From Acidobacteriota bacterium (lineage in GTDB: Bacteria; Acidobacteriota; Holophagae; Thermotomaculales; Thermotomaculaceae), in NCBI GenBank assembly GCA_013152385.1, contig JAADGL010000010.1, positions 92,336-140,990 on the forward strand: a DNA stretch of 48,655 bases, given 5' to 3'. This document shows, piece after piece, positions 2,370 through 38,244 of this stretch. Both the position numbers and the translations under genes were made by a program. The notes under the pieces were generated by a model, which had not been told where the DNA came from, made no database searches, and worked only from the letters and a program-made list of their open reading frames with translations. The number at the start of each line of letters is the position of its first letter. Positions within the stretch are counted from its first letter, which is position 1.

Positions 2370-4983
2370 TAAAGGATATGACCACGGAAAGGCGGAAACC
2401 GAGTGGTATCGGATGTGGGAAGAGCGGGAATATTTCAAAGGGGAAGCCGTATCGGACAAACCCCCGTTTTCCGTTGTCATTCCGCCGCCGAATATTACGG
2501 GGAATCTGCACATGGGGCATGCCCTTGTATACACATTACACGATGTTTATGTCCGCTATCAACGGATGAAAGGCAAAAACACCCTCTGGCTCCCGGGGGT
2601 GGATCATGCCGGAATTGCCACCCAGAATGTGGTGGAAAAGCAACTGGCAAAGGAAGGGAAGACCCGGAAAGACATCGGAAGGGAAGCTTTTGAGGAACGG
2701 GTCTGGAAATGGAAAGACGAAAACGAAAGCGCCATTATGAACCAGCTTCGGAAACTGGGGTGTTCGGTGGACTGGTCCCGGCATCGGTTTACCCTGGACC
2801 CGGGCTTGTCCAGAGCGGTTCGGAAAGTCTTTGTTACCCTGTATAAGGAGGGCCTGATTTATCGGGACACTATGCTGGTGAACTGGTGCCCCAGATGTGA
2901 AACTGCCATTTCAGATCTGGAAGTCAAACACAAAGAGAGAAACGGCAAGCTCTGGTATTTCAAATATCCGGTGAAAAACAGTGACGACTTTCTGGTCATT
3001 GCCACCACAAGGCCGGAAACCATGCTGGGAGATAGCGCAATTGCGGTGCATCCTGAAGACGAACGCTATTTGTCCCTTGTTGGGAAAACAGTCATATTGC
3101 CCATTGTAAACCGTGAAATTCCCATTATTGCCGATGATTTTGTGGACAAAGAATTCGGTACCGGCGCGGTGAAAGTAACCCCGGCGCATGACCCCAACGA
3201 TTATGAATGCGGAAAACGCCATAAACTTGCATTTATTTCGGTTATTGACAAGCACGGGAAGATGACAGAAACCGCAGGCGAGTTTGCCGGAATGGACCGG
3301 TTCAAAGCCAGAAAAGCCGTGGTGGCACGGATGGAATCCCTGGACCTGATTGAGAAAATCGAAAACCATGCCCACGCGGTTGGGGAGTGCGACCGCTGTT
3401 CCACCATTATTGAGCCGGCAATTTCCACCCAGTGGTTTGTTAAAATCGACCCTCTCGCAAAACCGGCACTGAAAGCGGTGCAGGATGGTGATATCCGTTT
3501 TGTCCCGGAAAAGTGGGTAAAAACTTACTATGAATGGATGAAAAATATTCATGACTGGTGCATTTCCCGTCAGCTCTGGTGGGGGCACCGGATTCCGGCC
3601 TGGCACTGTCCGGACTGCGGCCATATTACCGTATCGGAAACCGACCCCGATGCCTGCGAAAAATGTGGTTCCGCCCGGATTCAACAGGATTCCGATGTAC
3701 TGGACACCTGGTTTTCTTCCGGCCTCTGGCCCTTTTCCACCCTGGGCTGGCCGGATGAAACGGATGAACTCAAAACCTTTTACCCCACCTCCGTACTGCT
3801 GACCGGATTTGACATTCTCTTTTTCTGGGTGGCCCGGATGATTATGATGGGATTAAAGTTCATGGGGGATATCCCCTTCAAAACCGTTTATTTCAATGCC
3901 CTGGTCCGGGATGAACACGGCAGCAAAATGTCCAAATCCAAAGGGAATGTCATTAACCCGCTGACAGTGATGGAGCAGTTCGGTACAGATGCACTGCGCT
4001 TTACCCTGTCTATTATGGCAGTACCGGGAACCGACATTTCCCTGTCGGAGAAAAGGCTGGAAGGGTACCGCGCTTTCTGCAATAAAATCTGGAATGCCAC
4101 CCGCTTTGTTCTGATGAACATAGACGAAGAACAGGAAACCGGAAATATTGATTACAGCAAACTGGTGTTGGCAGATAAATGGATTCTTTCCCGTTTGTCC
4201 CGGCTCACCGAGTCAGTGGATAAAAACATTGAAGAATTCCGTTTTCACGAGGCAGCCAATCAGCTCTATCATTTTCTCTGGGATGAATTCTGTGACTGGT
4301 ACATTGAAGCGTCCAAACCCCGGCTTACAGACGGGGATGAACAGGTAAAAATGCTGCTGGTTCAAATTCTGACCCGGATTCTGAAACTCCTGCATCCGTT
4401 TATGCCCTACATTACCGAAGAGCTTTACCAGAAACTTCCCGGCCATGGGGAGAGCATTGCGATTGAATCTTTTCCGGTTGCCCGTCAGGACTGGCTGGAT
4501 GAGGCTGCGGAGGCGGAATTTTCTCTGCTCATGGAACTGGTTTCCCGGATTCGGAACATCCGTGCCGAAAAGAATATTGCGCCTTCCAGAAAAATTGAGG
4601 TGGAAATCCTTGCGGTTTCCAATGAGGCGAAGGCAATGGTGACAGAACAGGCTCCGCTGATTTCCTTTCTTGCCGGAACGTCCAGGCTGGAGCTGGTTTC
4701 GGCTTTTGATGAAAATGGAATTTACAGCAAAGCGGCGGCAGCCGGCATGGAAATCGGTGTTTCTCTTGAAAATCTACTGGATAAGGGCGAGGAAAAAGCC
4801 CGGATTCAGCGGGAGCTGGACAAACTGGAGAAAGAAGCGGAAAAACTTTCCCGGAAGCTGAATAACGAAAACTTCCTCTCCAAAGCTCCCCGGGAAGTGG
4901 TGGAAGCGAACCGGCTGAAATTCAAGGAATTAAAAGAAAAACAGAGTATTCTGCGGGAGAATATAAAAAAACTGGGAAATTAA
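2350..4983 (+). CDS. valS: Valyl-tRNA synthetase
   Basis: This 877-residue class I synthetase charges tRNA-Val in the cytoplasm. The HIGH-type motif is HMGH at residues 54-57 within PPPNITGNLHMGHAL, and the KMSKS loop is at residues 526-530. Between them lies the CP1 editing domain (TTRPETMLGD, VKVTPAHDPND) that removes mischarged threonine. Cysteine pairs (CPRC; CPDCG with CEKCG) look like zinc-binding knuckles. The WCISRQLWWGHRIPAW stretch is characteristic of ValS and IleS, and the C-terminal 70 residues are a charged coiled coil, which is typical of ValS. The length matches the family. The start overlaps the end of cstA by 20 nt, so it depends on that promoter. Confidence 0.97.
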   Translation: MARILIDKGYDHGKAETEWYRMWEEREYFKGEAVSDKPPFSVVIPPPNITGNLHMGHALVYTLHDVYVRYQRMKGKNTLWLPGVDHAGIATQNVVEKQLAKEGKTRKDIGREAFEERVWKWKDENESAIMNQLRKLGCSVDWSRHRFTLDPGLSRAVRKVFVTLYKEGLIYRDTMLVNWCPRCETAISDLEVKHKERNGKLWYFKYPVKNSDDFLVIATTRPETMLGDSAIAVHPEDERYLSLVGKTVILPIVNREIPIIADDFVDKEFGTGAVKVTPAHDPNDYECGKRHKLAFISVIDKHGKMTETAGEFAGMDRFKARKAVVARMESLDLIEKIENHAHAVGECDRCSTIIEPAISTQWFVKIDPLAKPALKAVQDGDIRFVPEKWVKTYYEWMKNIHDWCISRQLWWGHRIPAWHCPDCGHITVSETDPDACEKCGSARIQQDSDVLDTWFSSGLWPFSTLGWPDETDELKTFYPTSVLLTGFDILFFWVARMIMMGLKFMGDIPFKTVYFNALVRDEHGSKMSKSKGNVINPLTVMEQFGTDALRFTLSIMAVPGTDISLSEKRLEGYRAFCNKIWNATRFVLMNIDEEQETGNIDYSKLVLADKWILSRLSRLTESVDKNIEEFRFHEAANQLYHFLWDEFCDWYIEASKPRLTDGDEQVKMLLVQILTRILKLLHPFMPYITEELYQKLPGHGESIAIESFPVARQDWLDEAAEAEFSLLMELVSRIRNIRAEKNIAPSRKIEVEILAVSNEAKAMVTEQAPLISFLAGTSRLELVSAFDENGIYSKAAAAGMEIGVSLENLLDKGEEKARIQRELDKLEKEAEKLSRKLNNENFLSKAPREVVEANRLKFKELKEKQSILRENIKKLGN

Positions 4984-27925: not shown

Positions 27926-29350
27926 CTATTGGCGGGGGGTTCCGGAATCCCTGCCGTTTCCATTTGATGACGGCCGCAGCAGGATGCCGGCGCCAAAGAG
28001 TAAAACGGAGACGGCAAGCCCCGGAAACATGGGCTGAATTCCCATAAAATTGTTCAGTCCGGCAAGGGACGGGGACTGAAAGGCGGAGATAATCAACCAG
28101 AAAAACGGAAAAAGAAAGCCGAAAATAAGGTTGGCAACAATCCAGCCGCGGCCCGGAGCGATGGCGGGAAAATAAACGGAAAGTACCGGCAGGAGCATGG
28201 GCGGGATGAACAGGGAGCCGATAACGTACCAGATACGGATTACGGAGGGAAGCAGTATGGCGATAAGGATGGAGAGGGCTGCGGTGACAATCAGCCCCAG
28301 CCGTACGGCTTTTACCCGGCCGATTGCCGCTTTTGTCCGGCTGAGGATGTCATGGCCGATGGTGATGGCGGAGAGAAGGGATAAACTGTCGATGGTGGAC
28401 ATGATGGTGGCGAACAGCCCGGTGAGAAAGAGCCCGGACAAAAGCGGCGGCAGAATGTGGTGGCTCAGCAGAGGATAGCTCAATGCCGGTGTTTTCAGTC
28501 CGGTGAGCAGAGCCCGGGCATAGAGTCCGGTGGCGGTGGTGAGAAAGTCGAAAATAAACCAGAATCCGATGGAAATCAGAATGCCCCGTCTCGCGGTTTC
28601 CGGGGTTTTGGCTGCGTCGCAGCGCTGATGGAAGCCGGGGTCAATGAAAGTCCACAGCGCAATAAAATACCAGACCAGCAGGTAAGAAGGGGGATTCCCC
28701 CCGGTGAGGGTCAGGTGGTTTACCGGAAGGTGGGTGCGTAAAAACGGCAGCCCGCCGTAGCGGGACACAAGAACGGCAAAGAGAAGGATGAAGCCGCCGA
28801 ACATCAGAATAAATTGGAGTTTATCGGTACGGACAACAGAACGAAAACCGCCGGACAATACATAAATCATGGAAAAAACAGTTCCGATTGTAATGCAGAA
28901 CCAGAGGGGCCAGCCCGTGACTGCCATCATCAGGATACCGATCATGAGGACGTAGGGGGCGGGTAGAACCATGAACAGCGTCCAGAGGGCACCGATTCTT
29001 CCCGCCGCCGGCCCGTAGTCCCGGTACAGGCGGTCCGGAATGGACAGGCCGCCGTCCCGGCGGATCCGGGGTGCAAGGAAAATGGCGAAAATAAAAGCAA
29101 ACAGGTAGTAGGGAAGTCCAAATACCACCCAGTTGGAAAGGCCGTAGCGGTAACTGAATTCTCCGACACCGAGGATGCCGCCGTACCATGTGGTGACCAG
29201 GGTGGCGACAAAGGCGGGGAGGGTGAGGGATCGGCTGCCGATGATAAAATTTTCCTCGCTGTCATCCCCTTTTTTTCCGGTGAAACCGAGGAACAGCAGG
29301 AGCAGCAGGTAAATGACAACCGGAAGAATCTCCAGCGGGTGCAGGGCCAC
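27926..29350 (-). CDS. SSS-family symporter, probable thiamine (or precursor) transporter
   Basis: 474 residues with about 13 membrane helices. The opening EENFIIGSRSLTLPAFVATLVTTWYGG and VRTDKLQFILMFGGF are SSS landmarks, and FIDPGFHQRCDAAK is the P-x-x-x-Q-R-x-x-x-A-K sodium-symporter segment. The GTG start lies 2 nt after the stop of the thiamine pyrophosphokinase gene, so both proteins come from one mRNA whose first gene has a TPP riboswitch. I infer sodium-driven uptake of thiamine or a moiety across the inner membrane. Predicted thiamine transporters of this superfamily have been proposed before from riboswitch context. The alternative is an unrelated solute that merely shares the transcript. 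Confidence 0.78.
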   Translation of the reverse strand: MALHPLEILPVVIYLLLLLFLGFTGKKGDDSEENFIIGSRSLTLPAFVATLVTTWYGGILGVGEFSYRYGLSNWVVFGLPYYLFAFIFAIFLAPRIRRDGGLSIPDRLYRDYGPAAGRIGALWTLFMVLPAPYVLMIGILMMAVTGWPLWFCITIGTVFSMIYVLSGGFRSVVRTDKLQFILMFGGFILLFAVLVSRYGGLPFLRTHLPVNHLTLTGGNPPSYLLVWYFIALWTFIDPGFHQRCDAAKTPETARRGILISIGFWFIFDFLTTATGLYARALLTGLKTPALSYPLLSHHILPPLLSGLFLTGLFATIMSTIDSLSLLSAITIGHDILSRTKAAIGRVKAVRLGLIVTAALSILIAILLPSVIRIWYVIGSLFIPPMLLPVLSVYFPAIAPGRGWIVANLIFGFLFPFFWLIISAFQSPSLAGLNNFMGIQPMFPGLAVSVLLFGAGILLRPSSNGNGRDSGTPRQ

Positions 29351-29352
29351 GG

Positions 29353-29985
29353 TTAATACTCCGGGTAAAGGCGGAAAACGAACAGAACGCCTCCGCTAAG
29401 GGAGATGCTGCACCGGGAGCTGCTGAATTCATTGCTGGTGCCTTCCCGTTCTCCGAATCTCAGGGTTTCGCTGTTTAAGGGATATTTGAGCCCGGTGGTG
29501 CTTACCTGAATCGCTTCTCCCATGGGGACGAGGGACACCGCCTGCCCGGGTATTCCTTTCAGCTCCAGTGTTTTCCTGACAATGAAAATTTCCGATTCCG
29601 GTGTCAGAATCCGAAGGGAAAGCTTCCGGTCATGGCGGAGAAGAACAGACAGGTTTCCAAGTGTGTGGTCCGGGCGCTTCCCTGTCGCTCCCAGCAGAAT
29701 GACAGTGGAGATGCCTTCTTCTTCACAGAAAATCAGGGCTTTTTCCAGATCGCACTGTTCCTGGGACGGACGGCGGATAAAGCGGGTTCGGGGAAAAAGC
29801 CTGTGAATCCCTTCCGGCAGTGAGTCGAAATCTCCCACCACCGCGTCCGGGGTATAGCCGAAACGCTTTGCATGGGCAATTCCTCCGTCCGCTGCCACCA
29901 CAATGTCAAACCCGCTTTGCCCGGCAATGGCGGTTTCCCGTTTTGTTACTTCTCCGTTGGCGAATAGAACAGCCTGTTTCTTCAT
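29353..29985 (-). CDS. thiN: Thiamine pyrophosphokinase
   Basis: This 210-residue enzyme makes thiamine diphosphate from thiamine and ATP in the cytoplasm. Family motifs appear in order: VVAADGGIAHA, DAVVGDFDSLP, QEQCDLEKAL, LGATGKRPDHTLGNL, the STTGLKYPLNSETL turn of the C-terminal binding domain, and the late SNEF segment. The length is normal. It lies 132 nt after the TonB receptor gene; that gap contains a short inverted repeat (ACAAC-ACT-GTTGT) and no second riboswitch. It is followed after 2 nt by the symporter. With both transporters it forms a salvage pathway that needs no de novo thiamine synthesis. Confidence 0.94.
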   Translation of the reverse strand: MKKQAVLFANGEVTKRETAIAGQSGFDIVVAADGGIAHAKRFGYTPDAVVGDFDSLPEGIHRLFPRTRFIRRPSQEQCDLEKALIFCEEEGISTVILLGATGKRPDHTLGNLSVLLRHDRKLSLRILTPESEIFIVRKTLELKGIPGQAVSLVPMGEAIQVSTTGLKYPLNSETLRFGEREGTSNEFSSSRCSISLSGGVLFVFRLYPEY

Positions 29986-30117
29986 AATGCTATGCTACCA
30001 TACCCCCGGCCCCCGGAACAGCAGGGTCCGGGCAGGGAAAGCGTTTGAGCTTTTTCCCCGTTTCTCTTTTTTTATTTTTGCAGCGCCGCACAACAGTGTT
30101 GTTAACTCACTTTTATT

Positions 30118-32556
30118 TCAGTAGGTTGCACGGATTCCGAAACTGAAATGAAAACCGGCGGACGGCCAGTAGTAATTTTCTCCGGCCCACGTGTCATAGT
30201 ATCCGGCCGTATATGTCAGTTTATTGAAAATATTGTAGAACTTCAGATTCAGTACCAGCTTTTTTAATCGGCCGGGGCAAGGGAGCCGGGTGCTGATCCA
30301 TGCGTTGACCATGTTGTAGGAGGGAATAATCCGGTTCCGGTTTTCGGTATTGTCCAGATACTGTTTTCCGAAGGCCTGCCAGCGGACAGCTGCGGTGACA
30401 GCGTCTGTCCGCCAGGAAATTGTGGTGTTGGCAATGAAATCCGGAAATCCTGCAATGGTATTCCCGGACAGGTCCACATCGGTGGATTGGCCGGTGTTCC
30501 AGTCGTAGTCATGAAAAATAAATTTTTTGAAATAGTTGTCGTTGAAAGAGCAGTTGACGTCCAGTTGAAAATGCCCCGGCAGTTTAAGTGTCCCGGATAA
30601 TTCAATCCCCCTGTGAATAGTTTTATCCGCGTTGCCCCGGATGGGAAAACCGTCGTCATTTACCTGACCGTATGAAACGATTTCATCGTGGAAGTCCATC
30701 CAGAAAAGGTTTGCCCGAAGTGTCATCCGGTTTGTGGTACGCATGATGCCTGCCTCATAATCCAGGAGTTTTTCCGGTTTTACTTCAGGGTCAACCCACC
30801 GTACACGGATAATTTGCCTGTTTTCCATTATCGGCTGACTCCGGGAGAACAGCGGGGTTACGCCCAAATCGTCCGGGCCGTACCAGGTGTCGTAAAGCTC
30901 GGAATCCGCCGGTTCGCGATGGGCGCCGGAGATGTTCGCATACAGATTCACAGTATCGCTCAGGTTGAAATTGATTCCGGCCCGGGGGTTCCAGAACCGG
31001 TAGCGGACCCGGAAACTGTTCAGCAGGCTCCCTGTGAAGTTTCCCACCGCCTGCTGGGCCAGCCCGTAACTCATGTACTGGTAATGGAGGTTGCCCATCA
31101 GTGTAATCCGGCCGGTGGGGTGATAGAGTTCATTTATGTAGGCGGTGGCATATTTTTTCCCGCTGAAATAGCGGTGATAAACAAAATTCGGCTGAAATCC
31201 CGGAATTTCAAGCCCGATTACATCATCCACTTCTCCCCAGTGGTGGGAGTTATAAGAGCTGAAATACGTGCCGACGGTCAAATCACTGTTTTCATGGTGG
31301 ATGCCCAGTTCACTGACCCAGCCGTACTGATTCTTTTTTACCCACTTCTGCCGGATAATATCGGCATGGGGGGCGTTTTCCTCCGTGGGCCAGAGGCCGT
31401 AGTCGTACATGTTCCGGTGATGTTTGTACTGTTCATAGTAGCCCCGTCCATGGATGTAAAACAGGGTATTTTTCCAGTAAGTATTGTCATTCAGGATGAT
31501 TGTGTGATGAAGTTCGTAGTGGGGCTGACTGAAATTGTCAATGGTATGGGGATAGGTGATGGGATTATCATGGTGATTGATTCGCAGAACACTTTCCGGG
31601 GACGCTTCCCAGGCTGCGTGGGCAATTTCATTTCCGGTATATGCCACAAACCGGGTGATTGACCGATCGCCGTTGCGGGCAACAGAAAGGTATCCGGCCC
31701 ACTGCCGGACACCGGAGTTGTCCCGGTACCCGTCGGAAACCAGCCGGGAAGCCCGGAAAGAAATATGGTAACGTTTACTTTCCAGCGGAATTTCCGCCGT
31801 TACTCCGGTTTTCCAGGTGTTGTAACTGCCGCCGCTGGCATAGAATTCACATGATTTTCCGCTTCCTGTTTTGGTCAGCAGGTTCAGGGAACCTCCGAAA
31901 GTATCCACGCCGTAGAGAGAAGAACCGACACCCCGCTGAAACTGGATGCTGTTCAGGGATTCGGCGAAATCCGGCATATCCACCCAGTAAACCTGATGGT
32001 CTTCCGGGTCATTCAGGGGAATGCCGTTGATCATAACGCCGATTCGGCTCTGATCGAATCCCCGGACTTTCAGGTAGGAATACCCGGTTCCGCTGCCGTC
32101 GTCGGAATAGGAATAGACATTGGGCAGTCCGGAAAGAAGCATTGGAATATCTTCGGCGCCGTGTTCCTCCCGGATTTGTTTCGCGTCAATATTGGTAAAA
32201 ACCACCGGTGTTTCCCGGTTTACCGCCCGGGTCGCGTCTACCGTGATGGATTCGGACACAAAAACCGGGGAAAGCCGGACAAGCCACAGTTCCGCCGGAG
32301 CGGGACAGGGCACAAAAAGAGTTCGGGTGCGGTAACCCGGTGCCTGCACCCGAATCCGGGCCTGCCCCGGGACATTTGAAAAGTAAAATCGGCCGTCCTT
32401 TTTCGTAACCACTGTTTTCCCGGCGGGAAAGAGTGTGACAGTTGCGCCTGCAACAGGTTTTTTGTTTCCTTTTCCGATGATTCGCCCGTTAACGGAAGCG
32501 GCGTTTGCCGCCAGTGCAAGAAAAGAAAAAAGTATCAGTACCACCAGCCGTTTCAT
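30118..32556 (-). CDS. TonB-dependent outer-membrane receptor under TPP-riboswitch control (probable thiamine importer)
   Basis: 812 residues from ATG 32556, which has GGGAGG 5 nt upstream; an upstream start would place nine extra residues before the signal peptide (MKRLVVLILFSFLALAANA). A carboxypeptidase-regulatory-like beta domain fills residues 22-95. Then come a TonB-box-like ESITVDA, the plug (about 105-215, with GIPLNDPEDHQVYW and GVDTFGGSLNLLTK), and a 22-strand barrel ending in FSFGIRATY with the terminal aromatic residue required for assembly. The riboswitch in its leader and the adjacent kinase indicate that it imports thiamine or its phosphates, as Omr1-type receptors do in Bacteroidota. 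The substrate is inferred from regulation. Confidence 0.9.
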   Translation of the reverse strand: MKRLVVLILFSFLALAANAASVNGRIIGKGNKKPVAGATVTLFPAGKTVVTKKDGRFYFSNVPGQARIRVQAPGYRTRTLFVPCPAPAELWLVRLSPVFVSESITVDATRAVNRETPVVFTNIDAKQIREEHGAEDIPMLLSGLPNVYSYSDDGSGTGYSYLKVRGFDQSRIGVMINGIPLNDPEDHQVYWVDMPDFAESLNSIQFQRGVGSSLYGVDTFGGSLNLLTKTGSGKSCEFYASGGSYNTWKTGVTAEIPLESKRYHISFRASRLVSDGYRDNSGVRQWAGYLSVARNGDRSITRFVAYTGNEIAHAAWEASPESVLRINHHDNPITYPHTIDNFSQPHYELHHTIILNDNTYWKNTLFYIHGRGYYEQYKHHRNMYDYGLWPTEENAPHADIIRQKWVKKNQYGWVSELGIHHENSDLTVGTYFSSYNSHHWGEVDDVIGLEIPGFQPNFVYHRYFSGKKYATAYINELYHPTGRITLMGNLHYQYMSYGLAQQAVGNFTGSLLNSFRVRYRFWNPRAGINFNLSDTVNLYANISGAHREPADSELYDTWYGPDDLGVTPLFSRSQPIMENRQIIRVRWVDPEVKPEKLLDYEAGIMRTTNRMTLRANLFWMDFHDEIVSYGQVNDDGFPIRGNADKTIHRGIELSGTLKLPGHFQLDVNCSFNDNYFKKFIFHDYDWNTGQSTDVDLSGNTIAGFPDFIANTTISWRTDAVTAAVRWQAFGKQYLDNTENRNRIIPSYNMVNAWISTRLPCPGRLKKLVLNLKFYNIFNKLTYTAGYYDTWAGENYYWPSAGFHFSFGIRATY

Positions 32557-32620
32557 TGAAACCTCCCTGTTCTTTCGGAACAAACGATAAATTTTCGACT
32601 GTGGATGCGTGCGGGGAATG

Positions 32621-32652
32621 AAAAAAGCCGTTCCCGTGGGGGGAACGGCTTT
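32621..32652 (-). terminator. Riboswitch-controlled intrinsic terminator
   Basis: On the minus strand GCCGTTCCC and GGGAACGGC form a perfect 9-bp stem around a 5-nt loop (CCCAC), followed by six T. It lies between the TPP aptamer and the TonB receptor gene. The same GGGAACGGC also ends the aptamer at 32670-32678, so the two compete for one partner strand. Confidence 0.88.
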
Positions 32653-32670
32653 GCAAATCGGTTCATTCCG

Positions 32671-32770
32671 CCGTTCCCTGCGCCGGCATTACCCGGTTCA
32701 GGTTCCAGGGGTGTGTTCTCAGCCCGTTGCCACCGGCTTTCTCTCCGGTAGCTGCGAGCACCCCCACGGT
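32671..32770 (-). ncRNA. TPP (THI-element) riboswitch aptamer
   Basis: The minus strand shows the THI-box core in order: GGGGGTGCTC, an extended P3 hairpin (ACCGG/CCGGT), the invariant GGGCTGAGA, CACCCC, GAACCTGA, CCGGGTAATGCCGGCG and AGGGA. CCGT and ACGG close P1. Thiamine diphosphate binding should hold P1 shut and let the downstream terminator form, switching off the TonB receptor and probably the kinase and symporter behind it. Confidence 0.95.
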
Positions 32771-32779
32771 CCGGAAGAG

Positions 32780-32788
32780 ATTGTATCA
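32780..32788 (-). promoter_or_regulatory. Extended -10 promoter of the thiamine locus
   Basis: The minus strand reads TGATACAAT, ending about 10 nt before the aptamer P1 stem, so the RNA would begin right at the riboswitch. TAGACA, 19 nt upstream of the hexamer, is a possible weak -35. The same GTGATACAAT string occurs before the PA14 gene at 38245-38254. Confidence 0.55.
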
Positions 32789-36630: not shown

Positions 36631-38190
36631 CTATTGCTTCACCGGAAAAGTCAGAACCGTTCCGTCTCCCAGCCCCACCTGTACATTGTAATGGGTCAGC
36701 CCGGCAGAGATAGAGCCGTTATCCTGCATGTAAAGTTCCAGGAAAGTGTGGGGTTGTGTAGTGCTGAAATTAACACTGCCGTCGGGATGGTTCTGCCGCA
36801 ACCCGTCCATTATCACCGCAAGCGCCCAGCCGTTGTTTCCGGGAATCGTATCCCAGCGGGAAGGCATACCGTCTGTATTTTCCATTGAAATCCAGCGGAT
36901 TGTTGCGGGAAACGGAATTTCCACTTCAATATGACTGTCCGGAAACCCGTCGCCCCGGAAAACTTCACCCTGGGAAACAAAATCCACCAGTCCCTGTTTT
37001 TCTTTTAAGACTGCGGTACCGGCACTTGCCTGCTCTTGTCCCGATCCGGTATGCTGCTGCGCAGCATTTGACTGTCCGGTTTCGGCCGGCGCTTCCGGCA
37101 GTACGGGCAGAACCAGTGTTCCCGGCACGAATGTCATGCTGTTTCGTTTCGGCGGAGTGATGGAAAGCTGAAGCGCCACCCGGCCGGTGGCCTGAAAATA
37201 GTCCACCCGGATATCGTGCCGGCCCGAATACAGATGAACCCGCCCGGAGCGTGTGCGGGGCGCGTGCATTCCGCCGTTGTCCACCACCATCTGTCCGTCC
37301 ACGTAGACAATGGCGCCGTCGTCCGCCCGGACGCTGAATCGGTATTCTCCTGTTTCCGGAACGGAAAAGCTTCCGGTATAGCGAATCATAAACCACTCGT
37401 AGCGGTCGGTGATAAACGGAAATCCCTTGTCAAAGAAACCCGGCCGGATATCCAGCTTGTCGGTGTACAGTGTGCCGAGAACCGTATTTCCCCGGGCGCG
37501 GCCCGGACGCAGAACAAAACTGTGCGGAACTCCGTAAAGAGTGCCGGTGAATGCGTCATGCCTGCTTTCCCAGACGTTTCCGAAGGGGCAGTTTCCCCGG
37601 CCCACCGGTTTGTCTACCCGGAAAATCAGTGCCTGTCCGCCGGGGGGAAGAATCCAGAGCTGGAGAGCCACGGAATACCTCGGCCCCTGAAAATACTCCA
37701 CCCGAATTCTGTGATTTCCCTCTGACAGGCGGATTCGGCCGCTTTTGGTCCGGGCAGGGTGGGCGCCGTCATTGTCTACCACCAGCCGGTTGTCAATGTA
37801 GAGGCGGGAGCCATCATCGGATCGAAGTTGAAAACGATATTTCCCCTCCTCCATGACACGGAAGGAGCCGGTATAGCGGATTGCGAACCATTCAAAACGG
37901 TCGGTAATTCCCGGAAATCCTTCCCGGAAATCCCGTTTCGGGATATCCAGTTCTTCGGTATAAATTGTGCCCACCGGATTCTGCCATTTGACATCCCGCA
38001 GCCGCCGGGTTCCTGCCGGGAGCAGAAAAATTTTCCCTTTCAGCGCGCGGGGCAGCATCCGTTTGACTCCGAATATCCGTTTCCCACCCGCCCATGCCGG
38101 TGAAACCGTTAAACTGAAAATCAGAAGCCCGGCCACTATGCCCCATACCGGCCGGAACGTTTTTTCTGCTTTGAATATTGTTTTCTTCAT
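36631..38190 (-). CDS. Secreted protein with two PA14 domains
   Basis: 519 residues. ATG 38190 follows AGGAG by 7 nt. Residues 1-34 form a signal peptide ending SPAWA. Two homologous PA14 modules follow (about residues 50-185 and 215-360). Each has ITDR-[FY]-EWF-x-IRYTGSF, FxLR/VRxDDG and a DxNGxH-like VVDNDGAH/VVDNGGMH turn, the calcium/sugar-binding type of PA14. A short serine/glutamine linker precedes a C-terminal beta domain of about 110 residues (IEVEIPFPATIRWISMEN and later). It probably binds carbohydrate at the cell surface. A run of nine C lies immediately after the stop codon. It is transcribed alone from the promoter at 38245. Confidence 0.8.
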   Translation of the reverse strand: MKKTIFKAEKTFRPVWGIVAGLLIFSLTVSPAWAGGKRIFGVKRMLPRALKGKIFLLPAGTRRLRDVKWQNPVGTIYTEELDIPKRDFREGFPGITDRFEWFAIRYTGSFRVMEEGKYRFQLRSDDGSRLYIDNRLVVDNDGAHPARTKSGRIRLSEGNHRIRVEYFQGPRYSVALQLWILPPGGQALIFRVDKPVGRGNCPFGNVWESRHDAFTGTLYGVPHSFVLRPGRARGNTVLGTLYTDKLDIRPGFFDKGFPFITDRYEWFMIRYTGSFSVPETGEYRFSVRADDGAIVYVDGQMVVDNGGMHAPRTRSGRVHLYSGRHDIRVDYFQATGRVALQLSITPPKRNSMTFVPGTLVLPVLPEAPAETGQSNAAQQHTGSGQEQASAGTAVLKEKQGLVDFVSQGEVFRGDGFPDSHIEVEIPFPATIRWISMENTDGMPSRWDTIPGNNGWALAVIMDGLRQNHPDGSVNFSTTQPHTFLELYMQDNGSISAGLTHYNVQVGLGDGTVLTFPVKQ

Positions 38191-38244
38191 CAACAGTCTC
38201 CTTTTTGAAGTTACTCTGTAATAAAAAATTCATTGTTGGCATGC

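Follow-up and report, generated by a model that had tools for sequence, protein, structure and literature searches.

A thiamine salvage locus with a sodium:solute symporter that probably replaces lost thiamine synthesis in an Acidobacteriota bacterium

A TPP riboswitch, a TonB-dependent receptor gene, thiN, and a gene for a sodium:solute symporter (SSS) are consecutive in a 48,655-nucleotide stretch of DNA (the window) from a bacterium of the Acidobacteriota (2.57 Mb in 69 contigs, 99.3% complete), and very probably constitute an operon for thiamine salvage in place of a lost synthesis route. This supports the initial annotation of the window, which had read the region as a thiamine salvage locus using an SSS symporter. 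The sequence shows which parts are present, the order in which they lie, how they are conserved and which synthesis genes are lacking; from this we infer the substrate, the direction of transport, coupling to Na+, cotranscription and switching as follows. Thiamine would enter through the TonB receptor in the outer membrane and be moved across the inner membrane by the symporter, driven by the Na+ gradient; ThiN would convert it to TPP. When TPP is plentiful, the leader RNA would be bound, closing aptamer P1 and allowing the downstream terminator to form; when TPP is scarce, the aptamer 3' strand would pair with the 5' arm of the terminator and the operon would be read.

Locus organization

Profile and covariance-model searches matched all four parts on the minus strand, uninterrupted and in the order described in the initial annotation (TPP riboswitch, TonB receptor, ThiN, SSS symporter). 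The riboswitch aptamer (THI element; 32775-32658, minus strand) covers the full length of RF00059 (model positions 1-105 of 105), and scores 66.7 bits (gathering score, 54.3; E = 4.9e-11). The window has no further Rfam match and the whole genome no further TPP riboswitch; the aptamer is conserved in three congeners and in G016, a genome from another family of the class. The first gene (32556-30118, minus strand) encodes a putative OMR1/OMthi-like outer-membrane receptor with CarboxypepD_reg, Plug, and barrel domains; PF00593, PF07715, and PF13620 all score over their cut-offs, and the combination of plug and barrel places the product among the TonB-dependent receptors. Its mechanically called reading frame starts at a TTG (32583), and the ATG at 32556 is preceded by GGGAGG; in relatives the receptor gene occupies the corresponding place in the locus. 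The second gene is thiN (29985-29353, minus strand), encoding a thiamine pyrophosphokinase (TPK) that matches the equivalog TIGR01378 with 149.6 bits (cut-off 76.4) as well as PF04263 and PF04265. The third (29350-27926, minus strand; GTG start) encodes the 474-aa symporter, a proposed Na+:thiamine importer. Elsewhere in the window, a 520-aa open reading frame (36631-38193, minus strand) matches the PA14 domain family in two stretches.

The kinase and symporter genes are separated by 2 nt (29351-29352), exactly the spacing that had been taken to strengthen their link. Between receptor and kinase lie 132 nt, and this gap could in principle hold a promoter of their own for kinase and symporter, leaving the riboswitch in control of the receptor only, a separation that the initial annotation had named as contrary to its reading. 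However, a consensus scan detected no sigma-70-like promoter in the region scanned, and in G016 the receptor match is separated from the kinase match by 13 nt. Independent control of the two downstream genes is thus unlikely.

Leader RNA

Directly 3' of the aptamer is a 12-bp intrinsic terminator (AAAGCCGTTCCC-CCCAC-GGGAACGGCTTT followed by T's; 32652-32624, minus strand), which ranks first among the terminator-like sites in the region; weak matches of this type within the receptor gene were disregarded. The aptamer 3' strand, GGGAACGGC (32670-32678, minus strand), has the same sequence as a portion of the terminator 3' arm and can therefore pair with the 5' arm instead, which makes it a candidate anti-terminator half; the alternative duplex would have 9 bp and -17.3 kcal/mol. 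In its anatomy, the terminator is thus replaceable by an anti-terminator built on the aptamer strand. The minimum-free-energy fold of the whole leader (-84.2 kcal/mol) has the terminator formed, compared with -71.3 kcal/mol when the anti-terminator is forced (12.9 worse), and the switch would therefore have to be kinetic, acting during transcription. L032, L033, and L035 have a counterpart of the terminator downstream of the aptamer, and L034 has an imperfect one. A strict search of the other loci, including those of other phyla, placed a terminator behind 16 of 47 aptamers; the arms are often GCCGTTTTCC/GGAAAACGGC, matching the sequence GGGAAACGG with which the aptamers usually end. The leader is therefore probably a transcriptional off-switch, as judged from its sequence anatomy. 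One locus of the set, L111, has two TPP riboswitches (465-555 and 4681-4770) approximately 4.2 kb apart.

Thiamine synthesis genes

The initial annotation had proposed that the symporter takes the place of PnuT, which it gave as usual in Bacteroidota, a phylum other than that of the present bacterium, and that thiC, thiE, and thiG would show whether salvage is the only route. In family-by-family profile searches of the draft assembly, neither thiC nor thiE was matched, and PnuC/PnuT (PF04973) likewise had no match, so that no protein of the genome qualifies as PnuT-type. ThiG gave only weak, fragmentary matches (22-28 bits), which fall in the C-terminal portion of the model, and the best ThiL match (85 bits, cut-off 184) probably reflects PurM-like superfamily paralogues; neither was counted. 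With ThiE and ThiL both missing, HMP and TMP could not be converted to TPP, which leaves thiamine as the only vitamer usable by ThiN. The bacterium thus seems to lack vitamin B1 synthesis and to depend on import.

These absences bear on whether the symporter could instead carry the pyrimidine precursor HMP, or another vitamer, in the manner of ThiV. The SAR11 ThiV is an SSS protein under a TPP riboswitch and is likely an HMP carrier (PMC11452348); yet SAR11 lacks HMP synthesis only (PMC4260697), whereas here thiE and thiL are missing too and HMP would be unusable, and the substrate of the neighbouring kinase is thiamine itself. A ThiV-type role is therefore highly improbable. A plasmid search for a ThiV-like relative returned three weak matches, and the one inspected sits in an unrelated context.

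The symporter and thiamine synthesis are also close to mutually exclusive among relatives. Among 21 genomes of the class, a symporter orthologue is present in exactly the five without thiC, the other 16 having thiC (Fisher p = 5e-5). In the class of L102 (Ignavibacteria-type, n = 119 genomes), thiC is present in 21 genomes (in one of these as two fragments below cut-off), the symporter in 88, and both in a single genome (Fisher p = 6e-14, uncorrected for kinship). Across 50 symporter-bearing genomes, thiC is absent in 48, absences being read from draft assemblies. The remaining two, G070 and G073, have both thiC and a symporter locus (L050 and L054, respectively).

Conservation across phyla

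A scan of GTDB genomes with the symporter alignment yielded 377 relatives, of which the best 80 were kept; these are from Calditrichota, Ignavibacteriota, Bacteroidota, Kryptoniota, KSB1, Neomarinimicrobiota, and others. TPP riboswitches were sought with a covariance model built from 22 locus aptamers, which replaced a fuzzy pattern that had missed many, and were found in 48 of these 80 best-matching loci. Within the same best 80 of 377, thiN precedes the symporter gene in the same orientation in 60 of the 74 loci with at least 0.9 kb of upstream sequence (median match-to-match gap, 38 nt), and the complete TPP-TonB-ThiN-SSS order is present in 39 of the 55 loci with at least 4.3 kb upstream; the others of the 55 have TPP-TonB-SSS (2), ThiN only (6), or none of these (8). 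The association with thiN and TPP riboswitches expected in relatives is thus found, and the unrelated contexts that would have counted against it are confined to a minority (in 14 of the 74 loci no thiN is adjacent; riboswitch and receptor are retained in 2 of these). Among nearer relatives, all four parts of the locus are retained in the three congeners and in G016 (54% identity). The symporter was found in 23 of 396 Acidobacteriota genomes drawn, and of 7 loci inspected in Acidobacteriota outside this family, 4 have TPP-TonB-SSS and lack a ThiN match within the stretch.

Eight symporter loci (L049, L062, L078, L080, L089, L098, L107, and L110) are away from thiN and TPP riboswitches. All of these except L080 and L089 form a well-supported sister group on the symporter tree (support 100), with neither thiN nor a TPP riboswitch in the fetched flanks; their neighbours are UspA-type-looking genes (by eye) and, in L062, a fumarase (Pfam). 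In L080 (7047-10989) and L089 (3043-9371), the symporter adjoins a xanthine-dehydrogenase-type enzyme (Pfam), with a nucleoside-hydrolase-like gene near (by eye), which hints that substrates may differ towards the base of the clade.

Such neighbours, together with a choline transporter being the best solved relative of the symporter, are what could be expected if the protein carried an unrelated solute (choline, pantothenate, or a nucleoside) and merely shared a transcript with the thiamine genes. In contrast, the symporter is linked to TPP riboswitch, receptor, and thiN across several phyla, also where thiN itself is missing, it is near-exclusive with thiC, and the PanF and PutP models score far below cut-off for the window protein. 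Transport of an unrelated solute is thus quite improbable, and thiamine remains the likelier candidate.

Symporter family and predicted pocket

The symporter matches PF00474 with 98.2 bits (cut-off 22.8) and, with its SSS fold and Na2 residues, belongs to the SSS family (TC 2.A.21). It scores below the cut-off of the NCBIfam 'sss' superfamily model (108.9 versus 184 bits) and is assigned to neither the PanF (90.5 versus 328 bits) nor the PutP equivalog (50 versus 515 bits); the clade as a whole has only generic sss, PanF-like, and PutP-like matches among NCBIfam models. An AlphaFold2 model of the symporter (pLDDT 93.8) had human CHT1 as its best Foldseek match (8j74, E = 1.4e-14, approximately 19% identity), and the nearest solved structure by profile is a bacterial CHT chain.

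Residues were paired with CHT1 by visual inspection of the profile alignment with the bacterial CHT, and part of the pairing was carried over via the human CHT1 sequence. Aligned residues (symporter = CHT1) are W55 = W62, E64 = E73, and W374 = W406, with S318/T319 = S346/S347 at the Na2 site and D176/D321/S322 = D188/D349/S350 at the Na3 site. The CHT1 substrate-site and Na+ residues used for comparison are published (PMC11589582), as are the correspondences between the two CHTs (W62 = W99 and W406 = W445; PMC13220886). Like CHT1 (SLC5A7), the symporter thus has Trp at TM1 and TM10, both at substrate-site positions, Glu in TM1, and the Na+ sites; unlike in CHT1, which is a choline carrier, the positions aligned with two of the four choline-caging residues (W141 and W254) are not Trp. 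Y56, G57, G58, E64, and W374 are present in 81 of 81 clade members (the window protein and the best 80 of 377) and W55 in 79 of 81, and PanF and PutP deviate at W55 and E64. Thiamine, like choline, has a quaternary nitrogen, and a cation-pi pocket is therefore plausible.

On the symporter tree, the 81 clade members form one branch (support 100) apart from E. coli PanF, PutP, and the other SSS of the organism, the outgroup branches being long. The window group falls within a mainly Calditrichota set (support 99); the receptor tree also places it inside Calditrichota (support 100), and the kinase tree agrees in part. Transfer of the operon from the Calditrichota side is thus likely, as judged from the trees. 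We lean slightly towards a wider reading, in which the clade would be a separate bacterial lineage of Na+:thiamine symporters that holds the cationic thiazolium ring in an aromatic pocket like that of CHT1, has moved between phyla as an operon, and gives thiC-less members of Ignavibacteria, Calditrichota, KSB1, Kryptoniota, and scattered Acidobacteriota their main carrier for thiamine at the inner membrane.

Relation to known systems

Loci of this kind are already known. The same locus is in print for Caldithrix abyssi (Cabys_3975-3977), a member of another phylum than the window, with incomplete thiamine synthesis; in the portions of that paper drawn on here, the receptor is given a thiamine-transport role and the symporter none, and there is no comparison across phyla or with thiC (PMC5317091). 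The Bacteroides OMthi-PnuT-Tnr3 system similarly combines a TPP riboswitch, a TonB receptor, an inner-membrane carrier, and a thiamine-activating enzyme, but its carrier is PnuT, which is absent from the window genome, and B. thetaiotaomicron keeps biosynthesis too (PMC5613172).

SSS carriers of thiamine or HMP under TPP riboswitches are also known. ThiV/SSSP of SAR11, Methylobacillus, and algae, the algal carriers being SSSP/SSSF (PMC4260697), are likewise SSS genes under TPP riboswitches (PMC11452348, PMC4260697); SAR11 ThiV differs from the thiamine carrier proposed here in its likely substrate, HMP, and in having a host deficient in HMP synthesis only. Candida Dur31 is an SSS protein with a TPP riboswitch in many species, and its deletion confers pyrithiamine resistance, which is genetic support for a thiamin transporter; unlike the present system, it is fungal, has a splicing-type riboswitch, and lacks a receptor (PMC5997356). 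In open-access text, no paper was found that names thiamine as the substrate of this clade of bacterial symporters or describes its spread. What is added here is the breadth over phyla, the mutual exclusion with synthesis, and a testable pocket, with W55, E64, and W374 of the symporter as concrete residues. The thiamine carriers of many uncultured auxotrophs are poorly annotated, and a carrier assignment over several phyla would improve predictions of vitamin exchange from metagenomes.
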